Source of the DNA: Rothia sp. P100
Lineage (GTDB): Bacteria > Actinomycetota > Actinomycetes > Actinomycetales > Micrococcaceae
Direction of reading: 5' to 3'
DNA: 64,000 nucleotides
Assembly (NCBI RefSeq): GCF_023712425.1
Contig: NZ_JAMAYG010000003.1
Span: 1 to 64,000 of the forward strand
Part shown: one piece after another, positions 34,159-54,314 of the stretch
How the letters are laid out: every line of letters starts with the position of its first letter
How positions within the stretch are numbered: the stretch's first letter is position 1
The notes under the pieces: model-generated
Told to the model about the DNA's origin: nothing
Databases searched by the model: none
The model's input: only the letters and a program-made list of their open reading frames with translations
Made by a program: the position numbers and the translations under genes

Positions 34159-34182
34159 AGAGACGTGAATTACACTGGTGTC

Positions 34183-34632
34183 GTGACTTCTTCAGCTACC
34201 CTTCAAGATGCCCTTGCCACCCGTTTCCTACGCTATACCGCTATATCGTCGCAGAGTGATGCCAGCGTAAGCACCGTGCCCACCAGCCAGGGGCAGTGGG
34301 ATCTGGCCCGCCTGTTAGAGAAGGAGCTTCTCGAAGCCGGTGCCTCTGAGGTACACCTCAGTGATACCTGCGTGCTCACCGCAAAACTACCCAGCAACTT
34401 GGCTGCTGGCGCTACAGCCCCAGCCATTGGCTTCTGCACCCACCTAGACACCGTGGACGTCAGCCTCTCCCCCGACGTCAAAGCGAAGATTGTGGACTAC
34501 AAGGGCGGGGATATCTGCCTCAACTCAGAACTCGATGTCTGGTTGCGTGAAGTAGAGCATCCCGAGATTAGCCGCTACGCCGGGCAGCGCGTCCTGGTTA
34601 CCGACGGCACCAGCGTGCTGGGTGCAGATACC
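34183..34632 (+). pseudogene. Truncated pepT (tripeptidase T), N-terminal third
   Basis: About 150 residues match the N-terminus of peptidase T: LATRFLRYTAISSQSDA, GFCTHLDTVDVS (first zinc His/Asp) and LVTDGTSVLGAD (bridging Asp). In intact PepT, GAD is followed by DKAG; here it is followed by WYG from an unrelated Rhs sequence, so the remaining 250 or so residues are missing. GTG 34183 lies 6 nt after TACACT (leaderless). The same frame runs on into the Rhs piece, giving a chimeric open frame to 35190. It marks the left edge of the accessory zone. Confidence 0.8.
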
Positions 34633-35260
34633 TGGTATGGGGCTGATGCGAATACTAGCGCTGATAACTGGGAAGTCTGGAAACATTCAGACTTTGGCCG
34701 TCCGGGTAATCTCATTGGTGAGAAGGTGCAAAAAGCCAAAAGCGCACCGGTTACCTCTACCAACCCTAAGGGCGTAGGGACTCTGACTGAGAAGAAGTAC
34801 TGCTACGTCCCGGGCGTGGACCCTCGTTCTTGTCCGGTCAATGCTACTAACGCGGTGGATAAGATTCAGGCCTTGTACACGGCTAATATGGCCACCGGCA
34901 CTGGTTTTGTCACCTCGTATGCCTATGATGCTGCGGGGCATTTGCTCACTGTCAATACCCCGGGTAGCCCAGAGGGTAAGTATGAGTACACCTATGATGC
35001 TCGTGGTAATAAAATCAAGACCGTGCAGAGCACCGGTGACGGGCAGATTATCAGTGAGGCTGATACCTTCAACGCTCAGAACCAAATGACCAGTGATAAT
35101 TGGGCTTACGATGCTGATAGTAACGTGACGTCAACTGATGCGGTGAACCTCTCGTACAATTCGGTGAATCAGAATGTGGGCCACGACTAATACCTTTGCT
35201 GGTATGAGCCAGAAGCAGTTGATTGCTCAACAATCTTCTACTGAGGGTACTTTTGAATAA
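34633..35260 (+). pseudogene. Rhs/YD-repeat protein remnant
   Basis: Fused in frame to pepT. Tyr-Asp repeats are clear: YAYDAAGHLLTVNTPG, YEYTYDARGNKIKTVQS, NWAYDADSNVTSTD. The frame stops at 35190 after NQNVGHD, but shifting by one base continues as TNTFAGMSQKQLIAQQSS to a TAA at 35260, so a frameshift is present. No toxin or immunity gene remains. In intact genes the repeats form a shell around a C-terminal toxin; this is only the internal part. Confidence 0.75.
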
Positions 35261-35964: not shown

Positions 35965-36059
35965 GTTCAAAATTTTTTTCAACGGTCGACCATTAGCCCC
36001 AGTTATTGCTTTGCTCTAACTCAAGAGGCGCTTAGACCTTACACTGAATACAACACTCC

Positions 36060-36204
36060 CACTATCCATGACGAGCACGCCGACCTGATCATCAAACACC
36101 TGGCCTCCGTTGATCCGGATCCGGCCATTATCGACGCCGCACTGGCTCGGGCGGGCGGCTTCCGTGTGATCTCCGCTGATCTGCACTCCGACCACTCCGG
36201 ATAA
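36060..36204 (+). other. Fragment of an unrecognised gene
   Basis: GC content rises sharply at about 36060. The plus-strand frame reads IHDEHADLIIKHLASVDPDP and ends in a TAA at 36202. It looks like the C-terminus of a real protein, but has no start here and I do not recognise the family. Confidence 0.3.
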
Positions 36205-36258
36205 CGACTGTTCGGAGCGCTGGCCGATCGGTGGAAGACCGGTGGAAGACCGGTTGAG

Positions 36259-36284
36259 GCCGGGCACCCCCGGGGTGCCCGGCC
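36259..36284. terminator. GC-rich hairpin
   Basis: GCCGGGCACCCC pairs with GGGGTGCCCGGC. It lies after the fragments on both strands and may act as a terminator, though no T-run follows. Confidence 0.45.
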
Positions 36285-36311
36285 CATCTCGGTTCAGAAT
36301 TCGGCTGCCTC

Positions 36312-36501
36312 TCACATGAGCATCATGAGCAGGAGGAAGACCAGGAAACCGGCGGCGGCCATGGCGATGGTGCCGGTGCTCTCCTTGATTTCGTAGGCCT
36401 CGACCAGTAGCTCGGCGACGGCGGTGAACAGCAGCGCCGCAGCTCCGAAGGCCAGCCCTGCAACCAGCACCGGGGCGGAGACGCGGGGTTCCGGCAACCC
36501 C
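36312..36501 (-). pseudogene. C-terminal fragment of a ZIP metal transporter
   Basis: About 60 residues: VAGLAFGAAALLFTAVAELL, then VEAYEIKE and a last membrane helix ending MMLM. The VxELLVEAHE-type motif is diagnostic of the ZIP C-terminus. The N-terminal part is missing and has been replaced by another gene fragment, joined out of frame at about 36500. Confidence 0.6.
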
Positions 36502-36648
36502 GGAACGGACCTTCCAATCAAGCGGGTTGACCCCGGCCGCGTAGACCTTGACCCCGAGTTCTCCCGGGGCCGGCTGGGGGGTGTTGCGGGTGATCAGTTC
36601 CTGGTTGTCCGGGCCGCCGTACTCGTTGAACACGTATACCTTCGACAT
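36499..36648 (-). pseudogene. N-terminal fragment of a zinc-type NADP oxidoreductase
   Basis: From ATG 36648 the first 50 residues (MSKVYVFNEYGGPDNQELIT ... GVNPLDWKVRSG) match quinone-oxidoreductase/medium-chain dehydrogenase N-termini. Homology then stops where the ZIP fragment begins. An FNR-type box lies upstream in the right orientation. Confidence 0.6.
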
Positions 36649-36740
36649 CGTGTGCTTCCTCTCCTCGTGAATTTCTTTCCTGTGGTCACGGCCGTTCGCG
36701 GCCTTGCCTGTCACGGTAGGAAGATAATCACCGCGAGACC

Positions 36741-36754
36741 ATGACGTGGATCAA
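36741..36754 (-). promoter_or_regulatory. FNR-type box, minus orientation
   Basis: On the minus strand TTGATCCACGTCAT differs at two positions from the TTGATCCAGGTCAA copies downstream. A TACCGT hexamer lies 36 bp on, the same spacing. It points at the broken oxidoreductase gene; because the box is nearly symmetrical it might also serve the HMA gene at 36827. Confidence 0.5.
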
Positions 36755-36826
36755 AGAGTGAAAGAAGTGAGCACGAAGGACCCCACCGACATTTGAACTA
36801 CTCCAACTTCTGGGGAGCAGTTCATC

Positions 36827-37069
36827 ATGACCACTCCCATCCTCAAGCACACCACCGTGTCCACGTCGGGGTTTTTCTGCCCGAGCTGCCTGGCCACCGC
36901 CCAGACCGCACTCAATGACCTGGACGCGGTGGCCTCCGTCGAAGTGGTAGTACCGCCCGGCCATCTCGTGGTGTCCCATGACCTACAACAGGTGTCTGTG
37001 GACGAGCTGCTCATCAAGGTCGTCACCGACATCACCTCCACTGCCCACTCCTCAGGCAGCGAGTGGTGA
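36827..37069 (+). CDS. HMA-domain metallochaperone 1
   Basis: 80 aa. A single heavy-metal-associated domain with the metal-binding pair in FFCPSCLATAQTAL (CxxC at about 18-21). It likely carries Cu(I), Zn or Cd to the P1B ATPase at 39454, which lacks its own HMA domain. ATG 36827 follows GGGGAG. It precedes the FNR-like gene. Confidence 0.8.
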   Translation: MTTPILKHTTVSTSGFFCPSCLATAQTALNDLDAVASVEVVVPPGHLVVSHDLQQVSVDELLIKVVTDITSTAHSSGSEW

Positions 37070-37154
37070 GGGCGCGCGGCTGTCGGTTGTGTCGGAGGCT
37101 TTTGTTTCTCCGCTTCCGCGGTCATTGCTCTCCGGGCCTGATAGCATGGGGCTT

Positions 37155-37895
37155 ATGGCCCGCAATCCCGTCCGTCACACCTGTGCTCAGCCGCATCAGT
37201 GCTCCCTGGACGTGCGCATGCAGGTCCTGGCCCGTTCTCCGCTGACCAAGGAGCTGAACCCACTACAGCACAGGGAGCTTGACCAGCATCTGACCTCCTG
37301 GGCCTGGGCTGCGGGTGATCCCATCCTTCTAGCCGGCGAGCAGGCTCAGGGCAGCTATATGGTCGCCTCCGGTCGGGCTCGGATCACACGGGACACCATC
37401 GATGGCCGCGAAATCACCGTCGACATCGCCGCCCCCGGGGATGTCATCGGCCCACTGCACACCCATAGCTCCCCAGCCACCGACTCGGCCTGGGCGATCG
37501 AGACCACCTGCGCGCTCTACCTGCCCGCCGAGGCCCTGGCCGAGGTCGTGGACGCCTACCCGCAACTGGCGTTGGCGATCATTCGGATGCAGCAGGACCA
37601 ATTGGTCCGGTCCCGGGAACGCGAGACCGCACAGACCACCTCGACTGTCGAGCAGCGCGTGGCCGCCGCCCTCCAACACCTGGACGCCAAGCTCGGGCAA
37701 GTCCGACAAGACGGATCCAGCCTGCTGCAGGTCCGCCTGCGCCGCGACGACGTGGCCGGCATGGCCGGCACCACCGTCGAGTCCGCCTCCCGGGCAATGG
37801 CGCGGATGAAGAAAACCGGTGTCATCGACTCCGGCCGCGAATGGATCGCCATTACCAACCACCAGGCCCTGGCCGACCTGGTCGCCGCCCTCTAA
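37155..37895 (+). CDS. Crp/Fnr-family regulator with FNR-like recognition helix
   Basis: 246 aa (ATG 37155; ATG 37146 also possible). The N-terminus has cysteines in HTCAQPHQCSLD (C-x5-C), then a cNMP-binding-type barrel, a dimer helix and a C-terminal HTH whose recognition helix reads AGTTVESASRAMARM. The E..SR pattern matches that by which FNR reads TTGA half-sites, and a third Cys (ETTCALYL) is in the barrel. This predicts an oxygen- or metal-labile Fe-S/thiol sensor. TTGAT-N4-RTCAA boxes precede the next three units, so it probably activates them. Confidence 0.82.
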   Translation: MARNPVRHTCAQPHQCSLDVRMQVLARSPLTKELNPLQHRELDQHLTSWAWAAGDPILLAGEQAQGSYMVASGRARITRDTIDGREITVDIAAPGDVIGPLHTHSSPATDSAWAIETTCALYLPAEALAEVVDAYPQLALAIIRMQQDQLVRSRERETAQTTSTVEQRVAAALQHLDAKLGQVRQDGSSLLQVRLRRDDVAGMAGTTVESASRAMARMKKTGVIDSGREWIAITNHQALADLVAAL

Positions 37896-37956
37896 AACGC
37901 CCACATCCCTCTCTCTTTTCCAGGACAATTTCCTGGTAGGAGAGATTTGTCGTTGT

Positions 37957-37998
37957 TTGATCCAGGTCAAGGAATTAACCCGGAAAGGACCGTATCTT
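37957..37998 (+). promoter_or_regulatory. FNR-type box and promoter of HMA gene 2
   Basis: TTGATCCAGGTCAA (37957-37970) with TATCTT starting 36 bp after the box start (37993-37998). A start site about 7 nt beyond the -10 would put the box centre at -41.5, the class II FNR activator position. Confidence 0.75.
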
Positions 37999-38051
37999 TA
38001 AAGGTGCAAGCACAGGAACATGACGATAAAAGATGAAAGGACCTGGTTAAG

Positions 38052-38288
38052 ATGACCGACCCGGCCACGCTGAAGAACACCACCTTGCGCTCTGATGAGT
38101 TCACCTGTCCGAGCTGTGTCGCCAAGATCGAAAACAAGCTGAATGGTTTGGACGGCGTGGAGAATGCGGAGGTGAAGTTCTCCTCCGGACGCATCCTGGT
38201 CACCCACGACCCACAGAAGGTCTCCGTACGTGACCTGGTTACCGCGGTAGCCGAGGTCGGTTACACCGCCAAGCCGTCGGCGATCTGA
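38052..38288 (+). CDS. HMA-domain metallochaperone 2 (CopZ-like)
   Basis: 78 aa HMA domain with CxxC in FTCPSCVAKIENKL (about 17-24) and a C-terminal GYTAKPS. Paralogue of the protein at 36827 but closer to the consensus. Own FNR-type promoter. Probably supplies metal to, or removes it for, the ATPase at 39454. Confidence 0.85.
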   Translation: MTDPATLKNTTLRSDEFTCPSCVAKIENKLNGLDGVENAEVKFSSGRILVTHDPQKVSVRDLVTAVAEVGYTAKPSAI

Positions 38289-38402
38289 CGCACTTCCGAC
38301 CCCACAAGCCCGCCCGCACCAGAAAGTGCCGGCGGGCCATCTGTGCCCCCGGGCTACGAGCACCACAGTCTTTTTGCAATCCAGATCTCACTTTGCGGGT
38401 AC

Positions 38403-38444
38403 TTGATGCGGATCAAGGTACTTTCTCCGGATTGTTCATAACTT
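38403..38444 (+). promoter_or_regulatory. Perfect FNR box and promoter of the 105-aa gene
   Basis: TTGATGCGGATCAA (38403-38416) is a perfect TTGAT-N4-ATCAA palindrome; TAACTT (38439-38444) begins exactly 36 bp after the box start. The downstream stretch is nearly identical to that before the ATPase at 39454. Confidence 0.8.
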
Positions 38445-38493
38445 AATGAGTGCCACAGAAAACACCTGATCTTCATCATGAAAGGACACCACC

Positions 38494-38811
38494 ATGGCCG
38501 AAGTGACCTTTGCCAGTCTCCACGAGAAGATGAAATTCCTGCTCAAGGACCACGGGGTCGAGAACTTCGACGAGTCGGATCTGGACCTCGAATCCGTCTC
38601 CTCACTGCACGCCAAGGCGAACGCGTTATGCGCCGCCCACGGCGGTGACCCCTCCCGCATGGCGAACGATACCCTCGCCCAGTTACACCCGAAGCTGGAC
38701 TTCCTGATGAAGGGGCACGGCGTGGACACCGACACTGCCCGCCTGGACTTGAGCACACTGGAGGCTGTGGATGCCAAGGTCAACGCCATTGTCAACGCCT
38801 ACGATCATTAG
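38494..38811 (+). CDS. Two-repeat helical protein of unknown function, FNR-box regulated
   Basis: 105 aa, acidic, no signal or membrane segment. It consists of two copies of a 45-residue unit: LHEKMKFLLKDHGV ... LDLESVSSLHAKANALCAAHG and LHPKLDFLMKGHGV ... LDLSTLEAVDAKVNAIVNAYD. Each keeps LHxK, FLxK, HGV, LDL and AKxNA. The His, Asp and Glu positions could bind metal. I do not recognise the family. ATG 38494 has AAAGGA. It lies between a metallochaperone and a metal ATPase and has the best FNR box of the cluster, so it should be part of that response. Confidence 0.75.
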   Translation: MAEVTFASLHEKMKFLLKDHGVENFDESDLDLESVSSLHAKANALCAAHGGDPSRMANDTLAQLHPKLDFLMKGHGVDTDTARLDLSTLEAVDAKVNAIVNAYDH

Positions 38812-39363
38812 CGACTGGACCATCTTTCCGAAGTGGGAGCCGCGCTGTCCTCATGCCCACACCGACCCGTGAACGACAGGGACCGAATCTTCTCGCAAGA
38901 ACTCGAGCCCTGAATACAGGCGACATCCAGGGTGCCATACGCAACGGTTACTCCCGCCTATCACAGTGTGGCGGCGTTGTGCCGCGTGAGCCGTCCTGCG
39001 GGCCAGGATGACACTATCACCTAGGACATCTCAAGGAGACCCGTGACGCCTACCAGCGACGCGTAGATGACGACCTCGCCCTGTTCCCCTCCCTTGCGGC
39101 GCCCGACCCACACGGCCGCCACCCGATCCGGGAATGGCTGAGCACTCACACCGGCCCTCTCATGGACGCCGGCTGTACCGCCAAACCCTCGGCCTACTAA
39201 ACACCCCCTATCCGAGTACCCGGGAAAGGAGCATGATCGACACCACGTCATCTCCACGCTAGGAACCCACCAGCACCGTGCGGTGCTGGTGGGTTTCTGG
39301 TGTTGACAGGCCACGTGGCATGCTCTTCTGCTCCACCTCGTCAGGTCGGAGGTGTGTGGGTAG
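38812..39363 (+). other. Non-coding stretch with gene remnants
   Basis: No intact gene. A plus-strand frame from about 39020 to 39200 ends in CTAKPSAY and TAA, echoing the GYTAKPSAI end of the HMA protein at 38052, so it is probably the tail of a lost chaperone copy. A good terminator hairpin lies at 39264-39297. Confidence 0.45.
39264..39297 (+). terminator. Terminator hairpin
   Basis: AACCCACCAGCACC pairs with GGTGCTGGTGGGTT around 6 nt, with TTT after it. Confidence 0.7.
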
Positions 39364-39405
39364 TTGATCCAGGTCAAGGAAGTTTCTCCGGAATTGTCCT
39401 AACTT
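39364..39405 (+). promoter_or_regulatory. FNR-type box and promoter of the metal ATPase
   Basis: TTGATCCAGGTCAA (39364-39377), identical to the box at 37957, and TAACTT (39400-39405) 36 bp on. The spacing matches the other two promoters exactly. Confidence 0.8.
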
Positions 39406-39453
39406 AATGAGTGTCACAAGAAAAAGACCCTCAAAAAGTAAAGGACACCCATC

Positions 39454-41328
39454 ATGAAGACCTGGAAAACCTGGGGCGTGGTCGCCGTCTCAGGCCTGCT
39501 GATTATCCTGTCCTGGCTCACCCCCGCTGGGTGGCTGTCAGACGGATTCATGATCGCCGCCGCGGTGGTCGCCGGCTGGCAGATCGCCGTCTCCGCCGTC
39601 CAGGCCCTGCGAATTAAGATGATCTCGATTGACCTGCTGGTCATCGTCGCCGCCATCGGCGCGCTGTTCATCAACAACTACTGGGAATCCGCCGCCGTCA
39701 CCTTCCTCTTCGCCCTGGGCAAGGCCCTGGAGAAGGCCACGATGAACCACACCCGCAAGGCACTGTCGGACCTGGTGGACGCTGCCCCCGAGACCGCCAC
39801 CGTGCTGCGCGACGGTGAGCCCGAAACCGTTGAGATCTGGGAACTGACCCCCGGTGACGTCGTGCTCGTGAAAAACGGCGAGCAGATCCCCGTCGATGGA
39901 CGCGTGCTCTCCGGTCACGGCGGGGTCGACGAGGCCACCATCACCGGGGAATCCGTGCCCGCCGAGAAGGCCCAAGCCTCGGAGGTCTTCGCCGGTACTT
40001 GGCTGCGCTCCGGGGTGCTGCGCATCGAGGCGATCGGCATCGGCTCGGACTCCACACTGGCCAAGATCATCCACCGCGTCGAAGACGCCCAGGACGACAA
40101 GGCAAAAACCCAGACGTTCCTGGAGAAATTCTCGAAGTACTACACCCCCGGCGTCATGATCGCCGCCCTGGCCGTCGGCCTGATCACCCTGAACGTTGAA
40201 CTGGCCCTGACCCTGCTGGTCATCGCCTGCCCGGGTGCCCTGGTCATCTCGATCCCGGTCTCGATCGTCGCCGGTATCGGACGCTCCGCCAAGGACGGGG
40301 TGCTCATCAAGGGTGGCGAATACCTGGAGACCTCCGCGAAGGTCGACACCGTAGTCGTCGACAAGACCGGCACCCTGACCAACGGCCGCCCCGAGCTGAC
40401 CAACGTCGACGTCCTCGACCCCGCCTACTCGGACGATGAGGTGCTCACCCTGGCCGCCCGTGCCGAAACCGCCTCCGAGCACCCCCTGGCCGAGGCCATC
40501 GTCCGCGGCGCGGAGAACAAGGGACTGACCATCGACATGGTCGAGAAAGCCAAACCGGTCACCGGCAAGGGCATCATCGCCCACGTCGACGACCACACCG
40601 TCGCTGTCGGTGCCGGCGACCTGCTCGACCACACCCCGGATACCACCCGCATCCTCGAACTCAATGATCAGGGCAAGACCGCCATGTACGTCGGCGTCAA
40701 CGGACGAGCCATCGGCATCGTCGCCGTCGCGGACACCATCCGTGACGACGCCCCGGCCGCTATCCGGTCGCTGCATGACAAGGGCGTGCGCGTGATCATG
40801 GCCACCGGTGACGCGCAGCGGGTGGCCCGCAACATCGCCGCCGAACTCGGGGTCGACGAGGTCCGGGCCGAACTCATGCCTGAGGACAAGCTCGAGATCG
40901 TGCGTGAACTCCAGGCCCAGGGCCGCACCGTGGCCATGATCGGCGACGGCGTCAACGACACCCCCGCACTTACTCAGGCCGACATCGGCGTGGCCATGGG
41001 GGCCGCTGGCTCACCCGCCGCCATCGAGACCGCCGATATCGCTCTGATGGCCGACAAGCTGCCGCGTCTGCCCTATGCCCTGGGTCTGGCCCAGCGCACG
41101 GTGCGCACCATGCGGGTCAACATCGCCATCGCCCTGGCCACCGTGGCGGTCCTGCTGGCCGGTGTGCTGCTTGGCGGGGTGACGATGTCGATTGGCATGC
41201 TCGTCCACGAAGCCAGCGTCCTTATCGTCATCGCGATTGCGATGCTCCTGCTGCGCCCCACCCTCAAGGAGGGCAACGTGGAAGAGGTATCCGCCACCGA
41301 TGCCGCGAAGGAGGCGCTGATCGCCTAA
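39454..41328 (+). CDS. P1B-type metal-translocating ATPase with CPG motif
   Basis: 624 aa. No N-terminal metal-binding domain; starts directly with membrane helices. Actuator TGES (about 167-170), phosphorylation DKTGTLTNG (about 307), GDGVND hinge (about 499-504). The transport-site motif is ACPGALVISIP, where ZntA/CadA-type pumps have CPC. The second Cys ligand is thus missing. The rest most resembles the Zn/Cd class. Two HMA chaperones and an FNR-like regulator are encoded upstream. ATG 39454 has AAAGGA. Metal and direction cannot be stated with confidence. Confidence 0.88.
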   Translation: MKTWKTWGVVAVSGLLIILSWLTPAGWLSDGFMIAAAVVAGWQIAVSAVQALRIKMISIDLLVIVAAIGALFINNYWESAAVTFLFALGKALEKATMNHTRKALSDLVDAAPETATVLRDGEPETVEIWELTPGDVVLVKNGEQIPVDGRVLSGHGGVDEATITGESVPAEKAQASEVFAGTWLRSGVLRIEAIGIGSDSTLAKIIHRVEDAQDDKAKTQTFLEKFSKYYTPGVMIAALAVGLITLNVELALTLLVIACPGALVISIPVSIVAGIGRSAKDGVLIKGGEYLETSAKVDTVVVDKTGTLTNGRPELTNVDVLDPAYSDDEVLTLAARAETASEHPLAEAIVRGAENKGLTIDMVEKAKPVTGKGIIAHVDDHTVAVGAGDLLDHTPDTTRILELNDQGKTAMYVGVNGRAIGIVAVADTIRDDAPAAIRSLHDKGVRVIMATGDAQRVARNIAAELGVDEVRAELMPEDKLEIVRELQAQGRTVAMIGDGVNDTPALTQADIGVAMGAAGSPAAIETADIALMADKLPRLPYALGLAQRTVRTMRVNIAIALATVAVLLAGVLLGGVTMSIGMLVHEASVLIVIAIAMLLLRPTLKEGNVEEVSATDAAKEALIA

Positions 41329-41381: not shown

Positions 41382-42074
41382 ATGGGCAAGGAACTTGTGC
41401 GTGGTCTTGACCGGTGGTGTTTATGGTTGGAGGACGCAGATCCTTCTGATATTTCTAAAAGCCCGTTCTTACGTCAGCGTGTAGAAGCTAACCGCGAGTG
41501 GCGAACAGCCCAAAAACCTACTGGTGATGCTTATAAACTCAAAGATACTCCACATCTGATGCGTCCTAATAAAGAACGTCCTTTGGTGGATTATGTAGGT
41601 ATTCCCCGTGTTGTGTCGGAAGCTCGCTCTTATTACACAGTGGCTCATCTAGGGGCGGACGTGGTCGCCGGAGACAAGGTATATACCGCAATTGACACTG
41701 ATGGTTTACTTTTTGCCTTGATTAGTTCCAGTATGTTTATTGCTTGGCAAAAAGCTATTGGTGGGCGCCTGAAATCTGATTTGAACTTCTCCAATACCAT
41801 TGTCTGGAACAACTTCCCTGTCCCCGAGCTTGATGAGAAGCAGCAAAAAGCTATCATTGCAGCAGGTAAAAAGGTACTAGAAGCACGCGTGCTTCACCCG
41901 GACCGGTCACTTGCTGATTATTACAACCCACTGGCTATGTCACCGGAACTTCTCAAAGCACACGCTGCGCTAGATAAGGTGGTGGACCAAGCCTTCGGCG
42001 CTCCACGTAGGCTCAACACAGAGGCTCAGCGTCTCGAGCTTCTGTTCAAGAGATACCAAGAACTAACCCGTTAA
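41382..42074 (+). pseudogene. 3' fragment of an MmeI/YeeA-like DNA methyltransferase
   Basis: 230 residues that match the C-terminal target-recognition part of large class I adenine methyltransferases: DRWCLWLEDADPSDI, the GGRLKSDLNFSNTIVWNNFP motif and the C-terminal helical PLAMSPELLKAHAALDKVVD. The catalytic AdoMet and NPPY parts are absent, since the sequence left of 41382 belongs to the ATPase island. The ATG may be used, but the product would not be an enzyme. Confidence 0.75.
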
Positions 42075-43412: not shown

Positions 43413-46400
43413 ATGCCGACTGATCAATATTTGACCGAGGAACAAACGGTGGTGTTCGGGCGGTTCGTAGGCGAACCATCTCCGGCGGAGCTGGAGCAGT
43501 TCTTCTATCTCGACGCGGCTGACCTGGAAGGGATTGCTGAGCGTCGCGGTGAGCATAATCGGCTCGGTTTTGCGCTTCAGGTTGGGACAGTGCGGTTCCT
43601 GGGGGCGTTCCTGTCGGATCCGCTGGATGTTCCGTGGTCCGTGGTGGAATATTTGGCGGCACAGCTCCGAATCAATGATCCGTCGGTGATCAAGCGGTAC
43701 CCCGAGCGGGTTGCGACTCCGAACGCTCATGCGCGGGAGATCCGCCGGCTCTATGGCTATGGGGACTTCACGGGAGCTGCGGTCGAGGATCTGAGCGAGT
43801 TCGTTTACTCGCGCGCCTGGACGCACGGTGAGGGGCCGAAGGCGTTGTTCGCCCATGCGGTGGCCTGGTTGCGTCGGAAACAGATACTCCTTCCTGGAGT
43901 GACGAGACTATTGAAGTCGGTTCAGGCTGCCCGTGAACGTGCAGGGTCGGAGCTGTACGAGTGACTGGCTGGGGCAGCAATGGCCGCGGATCCTCAGTTG
44001 CCGGGACGTTTGCTTGGATTGCTGGCCGTTGATGAGGGTGCCCGTGGGTCCAGGTTAGAAGCATTACGCGCAGGGCCTGTGAGGTTGTCCGGGCCTGCCT
44101 TGAACAAGGCCCTGGCGCGGGTCGAGCAAGTCAGGGCCCTGGGGATTGGCGCGGTGGAGACTTCAGGAATGCCGGCATCCCGGTTACGGGCGCTGGCACG
44201 GTATGGGGTGGAAGCAAAGGCGCAGTCGCTGCGCCGGTTGGCGGAGCCGCGCCGCACGGCCACGTTGGTTGCGACAGTGGAAGCGTTGTCAGTGGCGGCG
44301 GTCGATGATGCGTTGGACTTGTTCGATGCACTGATGGCCTCGAAGGTATTGGGACCCTCGAAGAGGGCTGCGGTCGCGGCACGGTTGGAGACACTGCCGG
44401 AGCTGGAGAAAGCCTCGGCTGTTCTTGCCCGTGTCGGGCGTGAATTGGTCTGCCTGCTGGAGGAAGCGGGCGAGCAAGTCGATGTAGCGACGGTATGGGC
44501 CCGGCTGGAGAAGGTCGCCGCAAGGGATCAGATCGCGCAGTACGCCGACACGGTCGGTGCTCTCATCCCGGACGCCTCGGGACTGGAGGGCGCGATGCGT
44601 GTGCAGGTGGCCCGCCGATACCGGACGGTTGCCCCATTCTTGGGGTTGTTGGCTACCGTGTTGCCACTGCGGGCAACGGCAACGGGACAGCCTGTGCTTG
44701 ATGCCCTGGCCGGATTGGAAGCCCTGCGTGGCCGCCGGCAGCTCCACAAGGACGACGTTACCGAGGCCTTGGTACCGGCTGCCTGGCGCGCGGCGGTGTT
44801 CGGTCGCGACGGGGTAGAAGTTGACCGGGAAGCATGGGTTTTGTGCGTGTTGGAGCAGCTACGCGTTTGCCTGCGCCGTCGGGACGTGTTTGCCACACCA
44901 TCGACCCGGTGGGGCGACCCACGCGCCCAGCTGCTCGATGGTGAGCAGTGGGAGCAGGTACGCGATCGGGCGCTGACCAGCTTGGGCCTGGAAGGGCCGG
45001 CTGCCGAGCACCTGAACGATCGTGTTGAGGTGCTGGATACGGCCTGGAGGAGCTTGACGGCAAGCCTCGAGGAAGTGGGCCCGAACGGTTCGGTACGGCT
45101 GGAACCCTCAAGTACGGACGGGCGCACACGTTTGAAGGTTGACCGTCTGGATGCCTTGGAGATCCCGGACTCGCTGCGTGAACTCCGTGGGCAGGTCGCC
45201 TCGATGCTGCCACGGGTGGATCTTCCCGAGCTGCTGCTGGAGGTTCATTCCTGGACCGGGTTCCTCGACGCCTACACCCACATCGGGCAGTCCAAGGCCC
45301 GCATGGATGATCTGCCGCGCTCGGTTGCGGCGCTGCTGGTCGCAGAGGCCTGCAACGTTGGCCTGACACCCGTGGTTGCCGAGGGACACCCGTCCCTGAC
45401 GCGCGCTCGGCTCGGACACGTGGATGCCAACTACCTGCGCAGCGAGACCCACTCCGCCGCAAACGCGACCCTAATCAAGGCCCAGGGTGAGATCCCTGTC
45501 GCCCAGGTGTGGGGTGGTGGGCTGCTGGCCTCCGTCGATGGTCTGCGGTTCGTGGTCCCGGTACGCACGATCAACGCTGCCCCGAACCCGAAGTATTTCG
45601 GCCGAGGACGCGGGCTGACGTGGTTCAACGCGGTCAACGACCAGGTGGCCGGCATCGGCGCCACTGTCGTGCCCGGCACCGTGCGTGATTCACTCTACGC
45701 GCTGGACACGATACTGAACCTCGACGGCGGTCCCCGACCAGAAACGATCACCTCGGACACGGCTTCCTACTCCGACATGGTCTTCGGGATCTTCGCCCTT
45801 CTGGGTTACCGGTTCTCGCCACGGATTGCCAACCTGTCCGACCAACGCCTCTGGCGCGCAACCCCGCGTGGCACCACGGACTCCGATTACGGGTCGCTGA
45901 ACGATGTCGCCCGCAACCGGATCAACTTAGCCAGGATCGCCGCACACTGGGATGACATGACCCGCGTCGCTGCGTCTCTGGCGACAGGGACGGTGCGCGC
46001 CTACGACTTGCTGCGCATGCTCTCCCGTGACGGCAGCCCGTCCCCACTCGGTGCCGCGATCACCGAATATGGGCGCATGGACAAGACCATCCACCTGCTC
46101 GCCCTCATCGACCCACTCGAGGAAACCTACCGACGAACGACCCATACGCAGCAGACCGTCCAGGAATCACGCCACCGCCTGGCACGCGCGATCTTCCACG
46201 GGCGGCGCGGACAGATCTACCAGCGCTACCGTGAAGGCCAGGAAGACCAGCTCGGTGCACTCGGCCTGGTCCTGAACGCCATCGTGCTCTGGAACACCCG
46301 CTACACCGATGCCTCCATCAATGCACTGCGCGAGGCCGGCAACCTCGTGGACGACGCCGATATCGCCCGCCTGTCCCCGCTCGGCGATCAACACGTCAAC

Positions 46401-46481
46401 ATGCTCGGTCGCTACGCCTTCACCACCACCACACCAAGCGGGCTCCGCCCCCTGCGTATCTCCCCTGATAGTGCTGACTGA
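43413..46481 (+). pseudogene. tnpA: Tn3-family transposase TnpA with an in-frame TGA at codon 184
   Basis: The frame from ATG 43413 to 46481 is 1022 codons, matching Tn3 transposases. It is broken only by TGA at 43962-43964; reading continues in the same frame as LAGAAMAADPQLP, so a TGG to TGA change is the simplest explanation. The N-terminal DUF4158-type DNA-binding part (1-183) is separated from the DDE part, where TSDTASYSDMVFGIFALLG and the C-terminal YTDASINALREAG (Glu) are seen. Restart at ATG 43980 would give 833 aa without the first DNA-binding domain. Readthrough is possible but unproven. Confidence 0.9.
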
Positions 46482-46756: not shown

Positions 46757-47227
46757 TTAGACGCCGGCGTAGGAGTGCAGCCCGTTGAAGTAGAGATTCA
46801 CGACGGTGAAGTTGAAGACCAAGCAAAGGTAGCCAATAATGCTCAACCATGCCGAGCGTGCACCGGTCCAGCCGCCGGTTGCACGGGCGTGCAGGTAGCC
46901 GGCGTAGACAACCCAAATGACGAAACTCCAGACTTCCTTGGTGTCCCACCCCCAGTAGCGGCCCCACGCTGCCTCGGCCCAAATGGCACCGGCCATCACG
47001 GTGAATGTCCACATCACGAACGCCACGGCATTGATGCGGTACGCAAAGTTTTCGAGGGCGGCGGCGCCGGGGACCAGGCGCATGAACGGCAGCTTGTCGC
47101 TCTTGCCGGCCGCCAGCGCATCCATCCTGGCGTGTTGCACCAGCTGAAGGACGTTCATGGCGAAGGTGATGGTGAACAGGGACGAGGCCAGCACCGCTAC
47201 GTCTTTTTTCATGGCTGGCTTATTCAT
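46757..47227 (-). CDS. Half-size CcsB/ResC-like cytochrome c biogenesis protein
   Basis: 156 aa. It matches only the C-terminal half of CcsB: MAGAIWAEAAWGRYWGWDTKE is the haem-handling WWD region, followed by FVIWVVYAGYLHARATGGW and NGLHSYAGV, with conserved His residues. About four membrane segments. The usual N-terminal half is missing, though the start (ATG 47227, overlapping the ccdA TAA by one base) is well placed for coupled translation. It may be a genuine short form. Confidence 0.75.
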   Translation of the reverse strand: MNKPAMKKDVAVLASSLFTITFAMNVLQLVQHARMDALAAGKSDKLPFMRLVPGAAALENFAYRINAVAFVMWTFTVMAGAIWAEAAWGRYWGWDTKEVWSFVIWVVYAGYLHARATGGWTGARSAWLSIIGYLCLVFNFTVVNLYFNGLHSYAGV

Positions 47228-48024
47228 TAGATGGGCAACCGGACCTCATTGGTGAACCAGTCCTGCAATTGCGTGACCCACGAACCCCACAGGCCGGTGG
47301 CCATCAGGAGTCCCAGCAGTATTAACATGCCGCCGCCGAAGCGCATGATCGCCAGTTGGTGGCGGCGGAAGAATTTCATGGCACCCATGCCGCGGCGCAG
47401 ACCAAGTGCGATGAATACAAATGGCAGGCCCAAGCCCATGCAGTAGAAGAACGTCAGCAGCGCACCCTTGGCGGGGTTCGGGTCGATTCCGGAACTCACC
47501 GCGAGGACTGCCGCCAGCGTTGGCCCGATGCAGGGAGCCCAGCCCAGGCCGAAGGTCACCCCGAGCACCGGTGCCCCCCAAAGCCCTGCGGGTGGTTTGC
47601 GATGGATTTTCGCATCGCGTTGCATGAAGGAAAAACCGCCCATGAACACCACGCCCATGAGGATCACCACCAGACCAAGCAGCTGGGTTACCCAAGAACC
47701 TTCGAATCTCATCCAGACGGCAATCTGTGAAAAGACCACGCCCGCCAGGACAAAGACGGCCGTGAAACCGAGGATGAACAGGCCAATGCCCGCGACCATG
47801 CGACCACGCTTCTGTTCGGCGAGGTCGGCGCCGGACAGGCCGGTGACGTAACCCAGGTAGCCAGGCACCAGGGGCAGCACGCACGGGGACAGGAAGGAGA
47901 CCAGTCCCGCAAGGATGGCCACGGGGACCGCGAGGATCAGCGAACCGTCCTGCACAATCTCTGCAAACTGGTTGCCCCCCTGTGCAGGAATTGCGAGGGA
48001 AGCAACGAGCGATGAAAGCATCAC
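47227..48024 (-). CDS. ccdA: CcdA/DsbD-type membrane thiol transporter
   Basis: 265 aa, six membrane segments. The two active cysteines are seen in SFLSPCVLPLVPGYLGYVTG (about 46) and LGWAPCIGPTLAAVLA (about 163). It moves electrons from cytoplasmic thioredoxin outward to TlpA/ResA-type proteins. The start overlaps the tlpA stop by 4 nt (ATGA). Confidence 0.93.
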   Translation of the reverse strand: MMLSSLVASLAIPAQGGNQFAEIVQDGSLILAVPVAILAGLVSFLSPCVLPLVPGYLGYVTGLSGADLAEQKRGRMVAGIGLFILGFTAVFVLAGVVFSQIAVWMRFEGSWVTQLLGLVVILMGVVFMGGFSFMQRDAKIHRKPPAGLWGAPVLGVTFGLGWAPCIGPTLAAVLAVSSGIDPNPAKGALLTFFYCMGLGLPFVFIALGLRRGMGAMKFFRRHQLAIMRFGGGMLILLGLLMATGLWGSWVTQLQDWFTNEVRLPI

Positions 48025-48648
48025 AGGGCCTCGGTGAGGGCGGTATCGATCAGGGCCTTGAGCGTACTTTTTTCTGCAGCACCCAGAATGCGTGCCGCGA
48101 CCCTGCCCTGCCTATCCAGCACCAGGGTGGTGGGCACCGCTTGCAACGGAACGTACTGGGTCATGGCCAGCTGGATCGCGCCCTGGGTGTCCTGCACCGA
48201 GGGGTAGGTGATGCCGAAGGTGCGCTCGAACGCCTCGGCGGTCTCCTTCTCGTCGCGCACATTGATGCCAATGAACTCGACCTTGCCCTCATATTCGCTG
48301 CTGAGTTCCACCAGGAGCGGGGCCTCAATGCGGCACGGTGTACATGCCGCGTACCAGAAGTTCAGCACCGTTGCCTGGCCCACCCAGGTGGCCGAATCAA
48401 TGGCTGTTCCGTCATAGGCCACCGCGCTGATCTCGACCGGGGCCGTGCGTGAGCCGGGACCGTATTCCTCCACCGAACCATCGCCGGCTATGTAGTTCTT
48501 GTTGTTTCCCTCCCGCGCCTGCTTGGCCAGGGAGTCCTCATCCTCCCACACATGCCGCCAGTGGCAGGACAGCGGCGCCAAGCACGGCTGCACGCAGGAA
48601 AGCGCGGCGTCCCGCATGCTTCAAGGGGGACGGAAGGGGGTCGGTCAT
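48021..48648 (-). pseudogene. TlpA/ResA-like thioredoxin lipoprotein, frameshifted in the signal peptide
   Basis: From ATG 48648 (AGGAG upstream) the frame gives a basic N-terminus, RRAFLRAAVLGAAVLPLAAC with lipobox LAAC, then stops at TGA three codons later. The thioredoxin domain, in the next frame, continues as EDEDSLAKQ and includes FWYAACTPCRIEAP (CxxC) and cis-Pro AVPTTLVL. One extra G in the GGG run near 48545-48547 explains it. If translated from an internal start, the 198-aa product would lack the export signal. In intact form it would be processed by the LspA encoded upstream and reduced by CcdA. Confidence 0.75.
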
Positions 48649-48860
48649 GATTTCTAGCTCCTGGGATGTTCGCAGCGTTGGCCCAGAGGTCCACGCTGGG
48701 TATATACATTGCGGACTGCGAGGCGGCTTCCGGTATTACCGGCACCGTCCCCACCGTGGATTGCTGGGGTTATGTGGCAACCTGTTCCAGTTCGGTTTCG
48801 GGGTTCGGGGATTGCGGTGACGAAAGCGTGCCGGCCCTGTCCTTGCCGGAGGTGGACTTG
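48649..48860. other. Spacer between tlpA and cadD
   Basis: No gene recognised. A short minus-strand open frame (to 48754) lacks family resemblance. Confidence 0.4.
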
Positions 48861-49463
48861 TTAGAGTCCAAAGGCCCCTCCCTCGACGAGGATGAACACC
48901 CCGAGGCCGATGAGGACGAGAGGGAACAAGATGTGTTCCCAGCGTTCCAGGACCTCGGCAATCGGCCGGCGCGTGGCAATGAACTTGGCCAGCACCACGA
49001 GAACTGCAACCAGTGCGAGGAAGGCGATGCAGTATGCCACCACGGCGGTCGGTCCCACGCTGAGGAAAACCGGAACATAGACCCCGATGTTGTCCCCGCC
49101 GTTGGCGAAGGTGACAGCCGCGACAGTTAATACCCCCACGTTCTTGCCAGCGACTTTGGCATCATCGTCGTCGTCATCGGCTGCCCGCCAGGCTCGCCAG
49201 GCCGCCCACAGGCCGAGGAACAGGGGGATGAGGCCGAAGTAGGGGATCGCCTGGGGAGGGAGGAATACCCCAGCGCCCAGCGCCACGAGGACGGCCGTGG
49301 CGAGGATTCCGCCAAAGCCGAGATACTGGCCCGCCAGGATCCGGGCCGTTGTCCCGCGCTGTCCGGCACCGCGGGCGAAGAACAATGAGAGCACGATGAT
49401 GTCGTCGATGTTGGTGGCCATGAACAGGCCGATGGCCTGCAGGATGGAGGGGATGAGATACAT
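48861..49463 (-). CDS. cadD: Cadmium resistance transporter CadD
   Basis: 200 aa with about five membrane segments, LysE-like fold. The CadD signature LFMATNIDDIIVLSLFFA is near residues 13-30 and FANGGDNIGVYVPVF near 118-132. An acidic cytoplasmic run (DDDDDD) lies between. It exports Cd(II). ATG 49463 has GAAAGGAAACC upstream. Likely under the ArsR-type sensor at 50091. Confidence 0.9.
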   Translation of the reverse strand: MYLIPSILQAIGLFMATNIDDIIVLSLFFARGAGQRGTTARILAGQYLGFGGILATAVLVALGAGVFLPPQAIPYFGLIPLFLGLWAAWRAWRAADDDDDDAKVAGKNVGVLTVAAVTFANGGDNIGVYVPVFLSVGPTAVVAYCIAFLALVAVLVVLAKFIATRRPIAEVLERWEHILFPLVLIGLGVFILVEGGAFGL

Positions 49464-49569
49464 GGTTTCCTTTCAGGGTGGGGGATCGGTGGCGCCGCCT
49501 GGCTCCGGTGGCGCCACCGGTATTTTGTCCGCGCTGCGCGCCGGATTGCGGCAGGGCGAGTCGGACGGA

Positions 49570-50094
49570 CTATTCGGGATTTTCTTCCGGTTGGCGCCTG
49601 AACGCCCCGAGGACCATCAAGGCGGCACCCGCGGTGACAAGGACGTCTGCGAGGTTGAAGGTGGGGAACCATCCGCTGTGCAGGAAGTCCACGACCCCGC
49701 GCCCGTCCAGCCGGTCAATGAAGTTCCCCAGTGCGCCGCCGAGCAACAGGGCCGCGCCCGTGCGGGAGAGCCCGGTCATGGCCGGTTCGGAGGCCAGCAG
49801 GAACCAGGACAGGGCCGCGATAATCAGCCCGGTCGCGGCCGCGACTGTCCAGGGCGGGAGGGATGCGCCGAGGCTGAAGGCCACCCCGGTGTTGTAAAAC
49901 AGCCTGATGTCCAGCGGCCCCAGGCCCAGGGACTCGCCCACGGTCAGGTTTCTCTCCGCCACCCACTTCGAGACAAGGTCGGTGGCGGCGAGCAACGCCG
50001 CCCCGCCCAGCATCACGGTCCGGGACCGGAAGTGGCCGGACCGCCCTCCTGTGGTCCGCTCGGCTGCCGCGCTCATGCCGCAGGCGTCGCTCAT
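49570..50094 (-). CDS. lspA: Lipoprotein signal peptidase II
   Basis: 174 aa from ATG 50094, which overlaps the arsR stop by 4 nt. Four membrane segments and both catalytic aspartates: GGALGNFIDRLDGRGVVDFL and FPTFNLADVLVTAG. An accessory copy, besides the host's own (not in this window). LspA genes are frequent passengers of Gram-positive cadmium/lead operons; here it could process the TlpA-like lipoprotein. Confidence 0.92.
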   Translation of the reverse strand: MSDACGMSAAAERTTGGRSGHFRSRTVMLGGAALLAATDLVSKWVAERNLTVGESLGLGPLDIRLFYNTGVAFSLGASLPPWTVAAATGLIIAALSWFLLASEPAMTGLSRTGAALLLGGALGNFIDRLDGRGVVDFLHSGWFPTFNLADVLVTAGAALMVLGAFRRQPEENPE

Positions 50095-50474
50095 CGGGCA
50101 CTCTCCTGGATGGTGTCGTTTTCCCTGGCGGCGGTGCCATAGGTCGGGCACAGGCTCACCGCGTTGCCGGTCGCGGCCAAGAGGATTTCGGCCTGGGCCA
50201 GCATGTCCATGAGCTCGGGACGCGTCAGCGAGTAGTAGACACTGCGGCCCTCTGCGCGGCCCTCGACGAGTCCACAGTCCCGCAGGCAGGCCATGTGCGT
50301 GGACACGGTCGATTGGGCCAACCCCAGCTCATGGGTCAGTTGGCTGACCCTGACCTCACCATGCGCCATCCGCTTGACGATGGCGAGGCGGGCTGGATCG
50401 CCCAGGGAATGGAACAGGGCGGCTGCCGGGTCAAGCCCCTTGCAGCCGTCTTCACCGCTATATTCAATCGTCAT
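50091..50474 (-). CDS. ArsR-family metal sensor 1 (CadC/CmtR-like)
   Basis: 127 aa. Winged helix with HELGLAQSTVSTHMACLRDC as recognition helix and CLRDC (C-x3-C) that matches the Cd/Pb cysteines of CmtR; a third Cys is near the C-terminus (VSLCPTYG). Start ATG 50474. A perfect 9-bp inverted repeat lies 10 bases upstream. It leads the lspA-cadD-tlpA-ccdA-ccsB operon and probably represses it. Confidence 0.87.
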   Translation of the reverse strand: MTIEYSGEDGCKGLDPAAALFHSLGDPARLAIVKRMAHGEVRVSQLTHELGLAQSTVSTHMACLRDCGLVEGRAEGRSVYYSLTRPELMDMLAQAEILLAATGNAVSLCPTYGTAARENDTIQESAR

Positions 50475-50483
50475 ACATCGATC

Positions 50484-50502
50484 ATATCGTAAATTACGAT
50501 AT
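50484..50502. promoter_or_regulatory. Operator of the ArsR-type sensor
   Basis: ATATCGTAAATTACGATAT: a perfect 9+9 inverted repeat with one central base, just ahead of the sensor start, the typical form of ArsR/CmtR operators. Confidence 0.75.
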
Positions 50503-50677
50503 ATCGAGTTTGATGAACGCAGTGGAGGCTTCCAGGGCACGCTCCTGACCTCGACTGACGGGAGCGTCGGGGATCGAGAAGGCGTAGTCGGGCCGAATGC
50601 TGGATGCCGAGTGAGGTGGCTTTCACCCGACCTCGGAAATGGATCACTCTACATTGGATCATGTACCGTGGTGTTTG

Positions 50678-51010
50678 ATGAAAAGCGCAACCCCCACGCA
50701 TACCTCGGCCTTGACGCAATTGGGCCACGCCCTGTCGGACGGGACCCGGACCCGGATCCTGTTGGCCCTGCGTGACGCCCCCGCGAGGCCCTCGGACCTG
50801 GCCACGGAGCTGGGCGTCTCCCGGCAGTCGATGTCGAACCAACTCACCTGCCTGCGCGGATGCGGACTGGTTGCGGCCCAGCCGGAGGGCCGCAACACCT
50901 GGTACCGGTTGGCCGACCCACGGCTCGGATCGGCCTTGGGTGATATGCTGGAACTCGTCCTCACCGTGGACCCGGATTGCTGCACCCCCGAAGGATGCAC
51001 CTGCCGGTGA
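50678..51010 (+). CDS. cmtR: ArsR-family metal sensor 2 (CmtR)
   Basis: 110 aa from ATG 50678 (open frame extends to 50639). The helix-4 pair in SNQLTCLRGCGLVAAQPEGR is the CmtR C-x3-C, and the tail CCTPEGCTCR adds four more Cys. Sensor of Cd(II)/Pb(II) by family. Divergent from sensor 1 and at the head of the dsbA-VKOR unit. Confidence 0.85.
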   Translation: MKSATPTHTSALTQLGHALSDGTRTRILLALRDAPARPSDLATELGVSRQSMSNQLTCLRGCGLVAAQPEGRNTWYRLADPRLGSALGDMLELVLTVDPDCCTPEGCTCR

Positions 51011-51152
51011 CGGGACAGCCGATCATCAGGGAACCGCATTCCTCCTTGCCACGGTGCACCGAACAGCCGCGCCCGGCTACGGCCATTCCACCCCACACTC
51101 CCCACCCGTCCAGCCTGCCCTAGTGCACGCCGACTACAGAACGGAACACCAC

Positions 51153-51848
51153 GTGAGCAATCCCATCCCTCCCAGCACCCGATCCCCGAAGAAACCCAAG
51201 ATCGTCGTCTGGATCCTGCTGGCCGCTGCCGTTGTCGCTGCGATCATCGGCTACGCCGTCGCCCAGGGAAACTCCAAGGCCGCTTCCCCCCAAGCAGCCG
51301 ACGCCGCCACCACCGAACAGCAGGTCGTGCGGGAGAACAGCCGGGTGCTTTCCCAAGCACCAAGCGAGAAGGCGGTCCTGGTGGAGTTCCTGGACTTCGA
51401 GTGCGAGGCCTGCGGTGCGGCCTACCCGTTCGTCGAGGAGCTGCGCGCCGAGTACTCGGAGAACGTCACCTTCGTCCAGCGGTACTTCCCGCTGCCAGGG
51501 CACCTGAACTCCATGAACGCCGCCGTGGCCGTGGAGTCCGCGGCGCAGCAGGATGCCTACGAGCCGATGTACAAGAAGATGTTTGACACCCAGGCCCAGT
51601 GGGGCGAATCAGCCGACAACAAGAGTGCCCTGTTCCGCACCTATGCCGAAGACCTGGGACTGGACATGGCCGCCTACGACGCCGCCGTCGCCGATCCTGC
51701 CACCGAGGAACGCGTGAAGCTCGACGTCAACGACGGCAAGGCCCTGGGCGTCACCGGGACCCCGACGTTCTTCCTCGATGGGAAGATGCTCAATGTGCAG
51801 ACCCTGGAACAGTTCAGGGCCGCCGTCGAAGCGACGGCCGCCAACTAA
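51153..51848 (+). CDS. DsbA-like thioredoxin-fold oxidase
   Basis: 231 aa. One N-terminal membrane anchor (IVVWILLAAAVVAAIIGYAV, about 17-36), then a DsbA/thioredoxin_4 fold with active site DFECEACGAAYPF (C-x2-C) and cis-Pro TGTPTFFLDG. Introduces disulfides outside the membrane; its likely re-oxidant is the VKOR protein 31 bases downstream. GTG 51153. Confidence 0.87.
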   Translation: MSNPIPPSTRSPKKPKIVVWILLAAAVVAAIIGYAVAQGNSKAASPQAADAATTEQQVVRENSRVLSQAPSEKAVLVEFLDFECEACGAAYPFVEELRAEYSENVTFVQRYFPLPGHLNSMNAAVAVESAAQQDAYEPMYKKMFDTQAQWGESADNKSALFRTYAEDLGLDMAAYDAAVADPATEERVKLDVNDGKALGVTGTPTFFLDGKMLNVQTLEQFRAAVEATAAN

Positions 51849-51879
51849 TCCGCCGTCGCCAGATCCGGAAGAAGACTCC

Positions 51880-52518
51880 ATGAGCACACCTGTCACCGCT
51901 GATCCCGTAGCCGGCCCCCGGGACCCGGCGATCCGGGTGCCCCGCTTCGCCCGCCCCCGCACCTTCGGCTTCGTGCTGCTGGTCACCGGGGCGGTGGGCT
52001 GGGTCGCCTCGGCCATCCTCGTCCTGGAACGTCTGGCCTTGTATGAGGACCCGGGCCACGTGACCAGTTGCGATGTGAACCCGTGGGTGTCCTGCGGGCG
52101 GGTCATGGGAACCTGGCAGTCGGAACTCTTCGGCTTCCCCAACCCGTTGATCGGCATCGTCGCCTTCGCCCTCATCCTGGCCACCGCCATGATGGTGCTC
52201 TCCGGGGCTGCCCCGGGGCGCTGGTACTGGGCCGGGCTGCAAGCCGGAGTGAGCCTGGGGATGGTGTTAGTTATCTGGCTCTGGAGCCAGGCCCTGTTCG
52301 AGATCTACATCCTGTGTCTGTACTGCATGGTGGTGTGGGCGGCGATGATCCCCTTGTTTATCCTGCTCACGGTCCGCAACCTCGTCCACGGCGTCATTCC
52401 CGCGCCCCGGGCCGTGACCAGGTTCGCCGCCGAGTGGGCAGGCACCCTCGTGGCCATCGCCTACGTCTTGGTCGCAGGGTCGGTCTTTCTGCGATTCCTG
52501 CCCGCTTTCATCGGCTGA
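51880..52518 (+). CDS. VKOR-family quinone-linked thiol oxidase
   Basis: 212 aa with five membrane segments. Loop cysteines in CDVNPWVSCGRVMGTWQS and the quinone-side pair in YILCLYCMVVWA (CxxC). It reoxidises DsbA by passing electrons to quinone, replacing DsbB in actinobacteria. ATG 51880; GGAAGA upstream. Confidence 0.9.
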   Translation: MSTPVTADPVAGPRDPAIRVPRFARPRTFGFVLLVTGAVGWVASAILVLERLALYEDPGHVTSCDVNPWVSCGRVMGTWQSELFGFPNPLIGIVAFALILATAMMVLSGAAPGRWYWAGLQAGVSLGMVLVIWLWSQALFEIYILCLYCMVVWAAMIPLFILLTVRNLVHGVIPAPRAVTRFAAEWAGTLVAIAYVLVAGSVFLRFLPAFIG

Positions 52519-52581
52519 CCGGTCACCCAGACAATCGGGGCCGTCAACCGCATTTTCTGACAACCCATGGAGAGCCTAGAG

Positions 52582-52788: not shown

Positions 52789-52812
52789 GCGGGATACACC
52801 GCGACTGGACGT

Positions 52813-54304: not shown

Positions 54305-54314
54305 AGTCACATGA

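Follow-up and report, generated by a model that had tools for sequence, protein, structure and literature searches.

The first 64,000 nucleotides of contig NZ_JAMAYG010000003.1 of Rothia sp. P100, hereafter the window, carry a small module of metal genes arranged around a regulator of the Crp/Fnr family, REG. A sequence-only reading of this DNA had proposed that these genes answer to an FNR-like factor through three similar promoter boxes, and the present analysis follows up that proposal. The genes and sites are given below by position and strand.

36016..36714, minus strand: oxidoreductase remnant, NADP-dependent type, with start MSKVYVFNEYGG; only its N-terminal part is alike
36741..36754, minus strand: box 4, TTGATCCACGTCAT, pointing left and facing the oxidoreductase remnant; -10 element TACCGT at 36713..36718
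36827..37069, plus strand: HMA1, a weak HMA-like protein with CPSC (PF00403, 22.8 bits, cut-off 24.8)
37155..37895, plus strand, ATG to stop: REG, Crp/Fnr regulator (PF13545 and PF00027); the Met at 37155 is residue 1
37957..37970, plus strand: box 1, TTGATCCAGGTCAA, before HMA2; -10 element TATCTT at 37993..37998
38052..38288, plus strand: HMA2, an HMA metallochaperone-like protein with TCPSC (PF00403, 49.8 bits)
38403..38416, plus strand: box 2, TTGATGCGGATCAA, before REP; -10 element TAACTT at 38439..38444
38494..38811, plus strand: REP, 105 residues in two alike halves, with four modelled helices and no Pfam family
39364..39377, plus strand: box 3, TTGATCCAGGTCAA, before the ATPase gene; -10 element TAACTT at 39400..39405
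39454..41328, plus strand: ATP, a P1B-type ATPase with CPG in its membrane motif and with M578, M582 and H585 (TIGR01525)

As had been read earlier, the boxes at 37957, 38403 and 39364 are each followed by a -10 element whose first base lies exactly 36 nt downstream of that of the box, and the sequences running on from 38403 and 39364 are shared, with 50 of the first 60 alignment columns matching. The fourth box was absent from that list of three. On the minus strand, the pattern match again gives exactly 36 nt from its start to TACCGT. Judging from the -10 position, the centre of each box would lie at about -41.5. The full-site pattern, TTGAYN4RTCAW-N22-TANNNT, has four matches in the window and none in 100 dinucleotide shuffles of it. 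A wide regulon within the own genome was considered and rejected, as box plus -10 element is found there only at the four sites of the module; the plain box without a -10 element gives 11 strand matches (7 forward, 4 reverse), and its reversed pattern gives 3.

The proposed kind of regulator also holds. REG has a cyclic-nucleotide-binding effector domain (PF00027) and a Crp helix-turn-helix domain (PF13545), both above the Pfam cut-offs, and Pfam gives no others, which agrees with the statement that it is not an ArsR, MerR or CsoR protein. Its recognition helix, E209-x2-S212-R213, reads ESASR and thus has the FNR pattern E..SR. It was also considered whether the box could be a GlxR/CRP site. 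This was set aside as unlikely: the site reads TTGAY-N4-RTCAW, and REG is only 28% identical to the GlxR-like protein. The sole other match to REG in its own genome is GlxR-like by its position in the family.

Predicted recognition sites in Actinomycetota and Bacilli

Relatives of the regulator were collected by scanning genome contigs with a nine-member alignment, and the best 80 of 126 were kept. In the DNA compared around them, relatives of both HMA2 and the ATPase are present at 67 of these 80 loci. One or both are missing at the other 13 (L042, L057-L061, L075, L077, L078, L088, L104, L110 and L116), in some cases perhaps owing to contig ends. The hosts include Corynebacterium, Dietzia, many Micrococcales and Actinomadura, and, within the genus of the window, Rothia nasimurium, R. 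aerolata and R. nasisuis. The expectation that relatives would carry the same genes with the same box is thus borne out for the regulator, HMA2, the ATPase and the boxes, which are widespread, but not for HMA1 and REP, which were found in the closest kin only.

Boxes were counted in 85 sources. With at most one mismatch, TTGATN4ATCAA has 50 matches and its reversed pattern 1; at two mismatches there are 249 further matches and 45 for the reversed pattern. Distant loci often carry TTGAY-N4-RTCAT. The widened exact box, TTGAYN4RTCAW, gives 144 strand-hits, of which 99 have TANNNT at offset 36, while any other offset from 22 to 55 accounts for 7 of the 144. Reversed, the widened pattern has a single match in the 85 sources, and it lacks a -10 element. 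The strand-hits correspond to 100 distinct places; at 98 of them the -10 element stands at 36 on one strand, and the remaining two boxes lie too near the locus end for the other strand to be read. A chance origin of the sites was rejected from the shuffles and the reversed patterns. A second TTGA often stands immediately ahead of the box (GGTTGATTGAY) in distant actinobacteria, L066 among them.

The open reading frame (ORF) downstream of the 99 sites belongs to the ATPase in 52 cases, to HMA2 in 30, to REP in 7 and to something else or nothing in 10; the ATPase share is too high because the choice of ORF favours long ones. The last ten comprise four oxidoreductases (one being the remnant in the window), two hemerythrin-like proteins, one ZIP-like protein, two sites at the HMA2 place for which the wrong ORF was chosen, and one without an ORF. 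The hemerythrin-like target in Actinomadura formosensis was Pfam-tested. In Dietzia maris (L132), the site at 1500 lies 45 nt before what appears by eye to be a gene for cytochrome c oxidase subunit I; this site may be due to chance.

At the oxidoreductase, the counterpart of box 4 precedes longer ORFs (306 residues) in L042, L044 and L038. The last of these is a C. marinum plasmid, whose intact relative has ADH domains; no Pfam domain was found in the remnant itself. The gene is decayed in the window, yet its regulator site is perfect. In R. nasimurium (G021, L144), the site is likewise kept, with no ORF of at least 60 residues in the first 500 nt behind it.

On the scale of whole genomes, the full pattern occurs in 19 of 23 genomes with the regulator, at 0 to 5 sites each, and the reversed pattern in none. 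A survey of 151 Corynebacterium genomes (the genus of C. pacaense), with a regulator threshold of E 1e-30 or better, found the full site in all 29 genomes with the regulator and in 18 of the 122 without it (Fisher p = 4.6e-19, kinship uncorrected). In two of these 18 (G190 and G221), the sites precede real HMA2 and ATPase genes. In five genomes (G063, G064, G065, G162 and G166), the regulator is not beside the pump, yet HMA2 and the ATPase are again preceded by the sites; for G064, the distance of these genes from the regulator exceeds 7 kb.

A site also precedes a protein of 86-102 residues in six corynebacterial genomes (G063, G064, G120, G122, G213 and G219). These proteins (L126, L149 and L237-L240) look like one unnamed family, and Pfam gave nothing above its cut-off for the two that were searched. 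By eye they resemble parts of RIC/YtfE proteins, a likeness too uncertain for them to be named here.

The set extends to a second phylum. Nine of 18 listed Bacilli plasmids with FNR-like genes were examined, proteobacterial rows being left aside. In all eight annotated records the regulator is accompanied by an HMA protein, by a heavy-metal ATPase and by a protein of the Dps or ferritin-like type; the ninth carries no annotation. In all seven records that were translated (L169, L170 and L172-L176), CPSC is found in the HMA protein and CPG in the ATPase. Among the plus-strand boxes, 28 of 30 have TANNNT at offset 36, and none of the minus-strand boxes does. A site precedes both the HMA and the ATPase gene in each of the eight annotated records, and four records have two further sites, one before Dps and one before the regulator. 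Some also hold a VIT1/CCC1 or FetB iron gene nearby. The Enterococcus ATPase is 44% identical to that of the window.

It could be supposed that the boxes serve another factor and that the regulator gene is only a passenger of a moving metal block, as the module does move between genera. This appears most improbable given the co-occurrence in 29 of 29 genomes, the retention of the regulator where the boxed HMA2 and ATPase genes lie elsewhere, and the finding that, on four Bacilli plasmids, the gene of the regulator itself has a site in front of it. The placing of metal genes under an FNR-like factor, as first proposed, is well supported by the conserved boxes and spacing, the unlinked targets and this co-occurrence, all of which point to FNR-type class II control.

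The regulator and its putative sensor residues

In E. coli, FNR has Crp/Fnr domains, an E..SR helix, a TTGAT-N4-ATCAA site near -41.5, and CxxCx5C plus one further Cys as ligands. REG is similar in its domains, helix, box and -10 spacing. It differs in lacking the N-terminal CxxCx5C, in place of which it has His and Cys, and in its small regulon of metal genes. The landmarks of REG, in addition to the recognition helix, are an N-terminal CAQPHQC and C119. In an alignment of 81 regulators (the 80 loci and the window), H14, C16 and C119 are invariant, as are E209, S210, S212 and R213. The search patterns did not contain H14, C16, C119, S212 or R213, whereas the invariance of E209 and S210 is partly due to one of the two patterns requiring both. 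C10 is present in 68 of the 81 and missing in 13. The regulators of L108, L110, L114, L117 and L119-L121 have a gap at C10, and six of these seven loci hold HMA2 and ATPase genes, divergent from the regulator.

It had been suggested that redox or oxygen state, not metal alone, switches this set. The signal is less well supported than the control: the four-cysteine set of FNR (CxxCx5C plus one) is not found among the 81 regulators, in which the CxxC pair is absent, and H14, C16 and C119 are invariant instead. An oxygen-labile iron-sulphur switch would nevertheless be conceivable, in which, as in FNR, a cluster on C10, C16, C119 and H14 would turn on the metal genes when oxygen is low. The E..SR helix and the FNR-like sites would suit it, and C10-x5-C16 of REG recalls the spacing C23-x5-C29 in the FNR N-terminus. 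The Fnr model is the best NCBIfam match of REG, though at 59.5 bits it is far below the cut-off of 228. The C. glutamicum gene cg1327, discussed below, was among regulators picked for their transcript response to oxygen phases (PMC6027265; here and below, statements from the literature refer to the available parts of the papers cited). In the same source, growth of deletion mutants including that of cg1327 was unaltered under oxygen restriction, except for oxyR. This result, the lack of C10 in 13 of 81 regulators, the missing CxxC pair and the single N-terminal Cys of the Bacilli regulators displayed make such a cluster an unlikely sensor.

The regulators of the two phyla share about 25% identity, and most of the Bacilli N-termini displayed are His-rich. 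A thiol-disulphide switch has reportedly been described for FLP of L. casei. That protein has a Cys in its N-terminal part and a second near residue 112; the Cys of the actinobacterial and Bacilli regulators may lie at similar positions. By analogy, a C16-C119 disulphide could form in REG under oxidative or thiol-reactive metal stress. Both Cys are invariant in 81 of 81 regulators and similar in Bacilli, and a Dps or ferritin-like gene lies within the Bacilli set; activity of FLP without an iron-sulphur cluster is also cited (PMC5039431). Such a switch would not account for H14, which is just as invariant, or for the His-rich N-termini in Bacilli, and taken by itself it is rather doubtful, if a little less so than the oxygen-labile cluster.

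The invariance of H14, C16 and C119, the presence of C10 in 68 of 81 and the His-rich Bacilli N-termini make metal sensing a possible function. A metal site or a thiol switch would account for one His and two invariant Cys no less well than an oxygen-labile cluster does. We infer a ranking in which a metal or thiol centre comes first and the oxygen-labile cluster second.

The pump, the chaperones and the mobility of the module

The P-type ATPase at 39454-41328 indeed has the CPG motif that was read in it. It scores 561.1 bits against the TIGR01525 heavy-metal model (cut-off 346.25), which it shares with the P1B ATPases of the CPC, CPH and SPC classes; it has none of these three motifs and differs by its CPG motif and its separate clade. 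CPG is present in 68 of 72 aligned ATPases, and M578, M582 and H585 in 69 of 72. A tree was built from a chosen subset of 49 P1B ATPases from both phyla. The 27 CPG pumps in it form one clade (support 100/99) that is split by phylum and lies nearest to the SPC pumps, with weak support (87/77). Among solved structures, the best match by sequence is 7qbz, named a cadmium translocating P-type ATPase. No literature on the CPG motif was found among open-licence papers.

The substrate is hinted at in two ways. CueP lies beside the C. marinum copy of the module, which hints at copper; Dps and hemerythrin, together with a VIT1/CCC1 or FetB iron gene that lies nearby in some records, hint at iron. The window has CPH and SPC pumps of its own, so the need met by the CPG pump may well be a different one.

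Of the two HMA chaperones named in the sequence-only reading, HMA2 is upheld by its PF00403 match, and HMA1 falls short of the cut-off while keeping its CPSC. HMA2 shares the HMA domain family with CopZ chaperones and differs by its CPSC site and by scoring below the CopZ model cut-off (50.8 bits against 91). On the C. marinum plasmid (L038), a one-mismatch box at about 9885, with TATTTT at offset 36, precedes the HMA1 relative. For REP, 25 relatives were found, and its structure is predicted with a mean pLDDT of 90.5; Foldseek gave no match of the model in PDB with E <0.001. A TAL effector label for the REP relative in L038 (13.5 bits, under the Pfam cut-off) was taken as chance and dismissed.

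At the DNA level, the C. marinum plasmid pCmarinum1 matches 99% of the length of the module with 95.2% identity. A C. glutamicum plasmid matches 78% of it with 94.8% identity; of the regulator, this plasmid retains just the end. A recent transfer into Rothia is the simplest reading, by which the set would have come from Corynebacterium-type DNA. Pumps of the CPG class are carried by plasmids from Corynebacterium, Cellulomonas, Enterococcus, Listeria, Leuconostoc and others.

In the window, the module is flanked by a ParA gene on one side and by a fragment of an MmeI-type gene on the other. The latter, a C-terminal fragment of a restriction-modification protein (41382-42074), lies directly behind the ATPase gene, and a Tn3-family transposase follows about 2 kb past the module (43413-46481) as two ORFs, a DUF4158 part and a DDE part. 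The ORF at 34165-35190 has a short RHS-repeat match and is apparently a fragment. From 46757 to 64000 extends a metal/thiol island, with most gene names given by eye. It holds CcsB-like and CcdA-like cytochrome biogenesis proteins, a thioredoxin-like protein, a CadD-like protein, a resolvase, a multicopper oxidase and a two-component system, besides two pumps recognised by motif: a CPH-type ATPase (59708-61960) and an SPC-type ATPase that runs off the window end.

A proposed regulon and its known relatives

Taken together, REG is probably a Crp/Fnr activator of class II metal promoters, with sensing of metal or thiol state through His and Cys, export from chaperone to pump and a recent transfer of the module. 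It would bind TTGAY-N4-RTCAW and activate promoters from a box centred at about -41.5. Its targets would be HMA2 as a CPSC metallochaperone, REP as a helical accessory, the oxidoreductase that is decayed here, and the CPG-type P1B pump. The sensing centre of H14, C16 and C119, often with C10, may take up metal or switch between thiol and disulphide. A rise in a thiol-reactive metal, or in the stress accompanying it, would lead to the production of pump and chaperone, and the chaperone would hand the metal to the pump for export. The box, spacing, targets, conservation and unlinked targets support the regulatory part of this scheme.

Several findings weigh against it. No exact box in the window is aimed at HMA1 or at REG itself. 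The exact box with its -10 element is present in 54 of the 85 sources and in none of the other 31, some of which have drifted boxes and some of which have targets that lie elsewhere or are cut off. Similarly, 4 of 12 distant genomes are without an exact full site; the box has drifted at three of those loci (L084, L094 and L112), and L102 has none that is clear. In the Corynebacterium survey, the reversed pattern was matched in 12 of the 151 genomes, which means that a single site may arise by chance. The second Cys of the Bacilli regulators is about one alignment column off C119, and the unaltered growth of the cg1327 mutant belongs here as well.

A wider proposal can be put forward tentatively. 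REG would then represent a true metal-sensing Crp/Fnr family, with H14, C16 and C119 as direct ligands of the regulated metal and with control over a separate CPG/CPSC pump class in two phyla. The regulon would be old and mobile, built on the FNR promoter architecture, with iron and redox helpers (Dps, hemerythrin, oxidoreductase) joined by lineage.

Related Gram-positive regulators are known. FLP of L. casei, FlpA and FlpB of Lactococcus and FlpS of Streptococcus suis are FNR-like and poor in cysteines; for FlpA, a cluster is cited (PMC5039431). Unlike REG, FlpS has the arginine deiminase operon as its target, which it activates (PMC5039431). The FlpA regulon of lactic acid bacteria was projected under metal homeostasis (PMC3616900), and in this it is like that of REG. 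Neither source names a member from actinobacteria. The motif proposed for FlpA binding is not upstream of flpB, according to the available part of PMC3547956. The description of the arrangement as unusual holds for the literature reached, not for genomes, in which it is common, and the FlpA regulon had already been classed with metals. No literature on an actinobacterial FNR-like metal regulon was found among open-licence papers beyond the listing of one genome paper, and none of the terms looked for is present in the copper-excess paper PMC3140484.

The closest named counterpart appears to be Cg1327 of C. glutamicum, called an FNR orthologue, whose regulon is given as unreported in the available part of PMC8303971. 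The expression table of an indole study lists cg1327 together with cg1328, called a heavy-metal P-type ATPase (PMC7764795); a Crp-family regulator is again listed next to such a pump. A primer that was published for the flanking sequence behind cg1327 has TTTGATCTAG at its end (PMC6027265); compared with the regulator-box junction of L196/L216, 4 of 25 bases are different. Cg1327 is likened to REG from the literature and this primer, not from its own sequence.

What emerges has the look of a widespread and little-studied mode of control over metal export. In it, FNR-type promoters are joined to the CPG class of metal pumps, and it offers a testable regulon for Cg1327, which is listed in C. glutamicum without one (PMC8303971). 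It also provides a clear case for how the Crp/Fnr scaffold might turn from the sensing of oxygen to that of metals or thiols.

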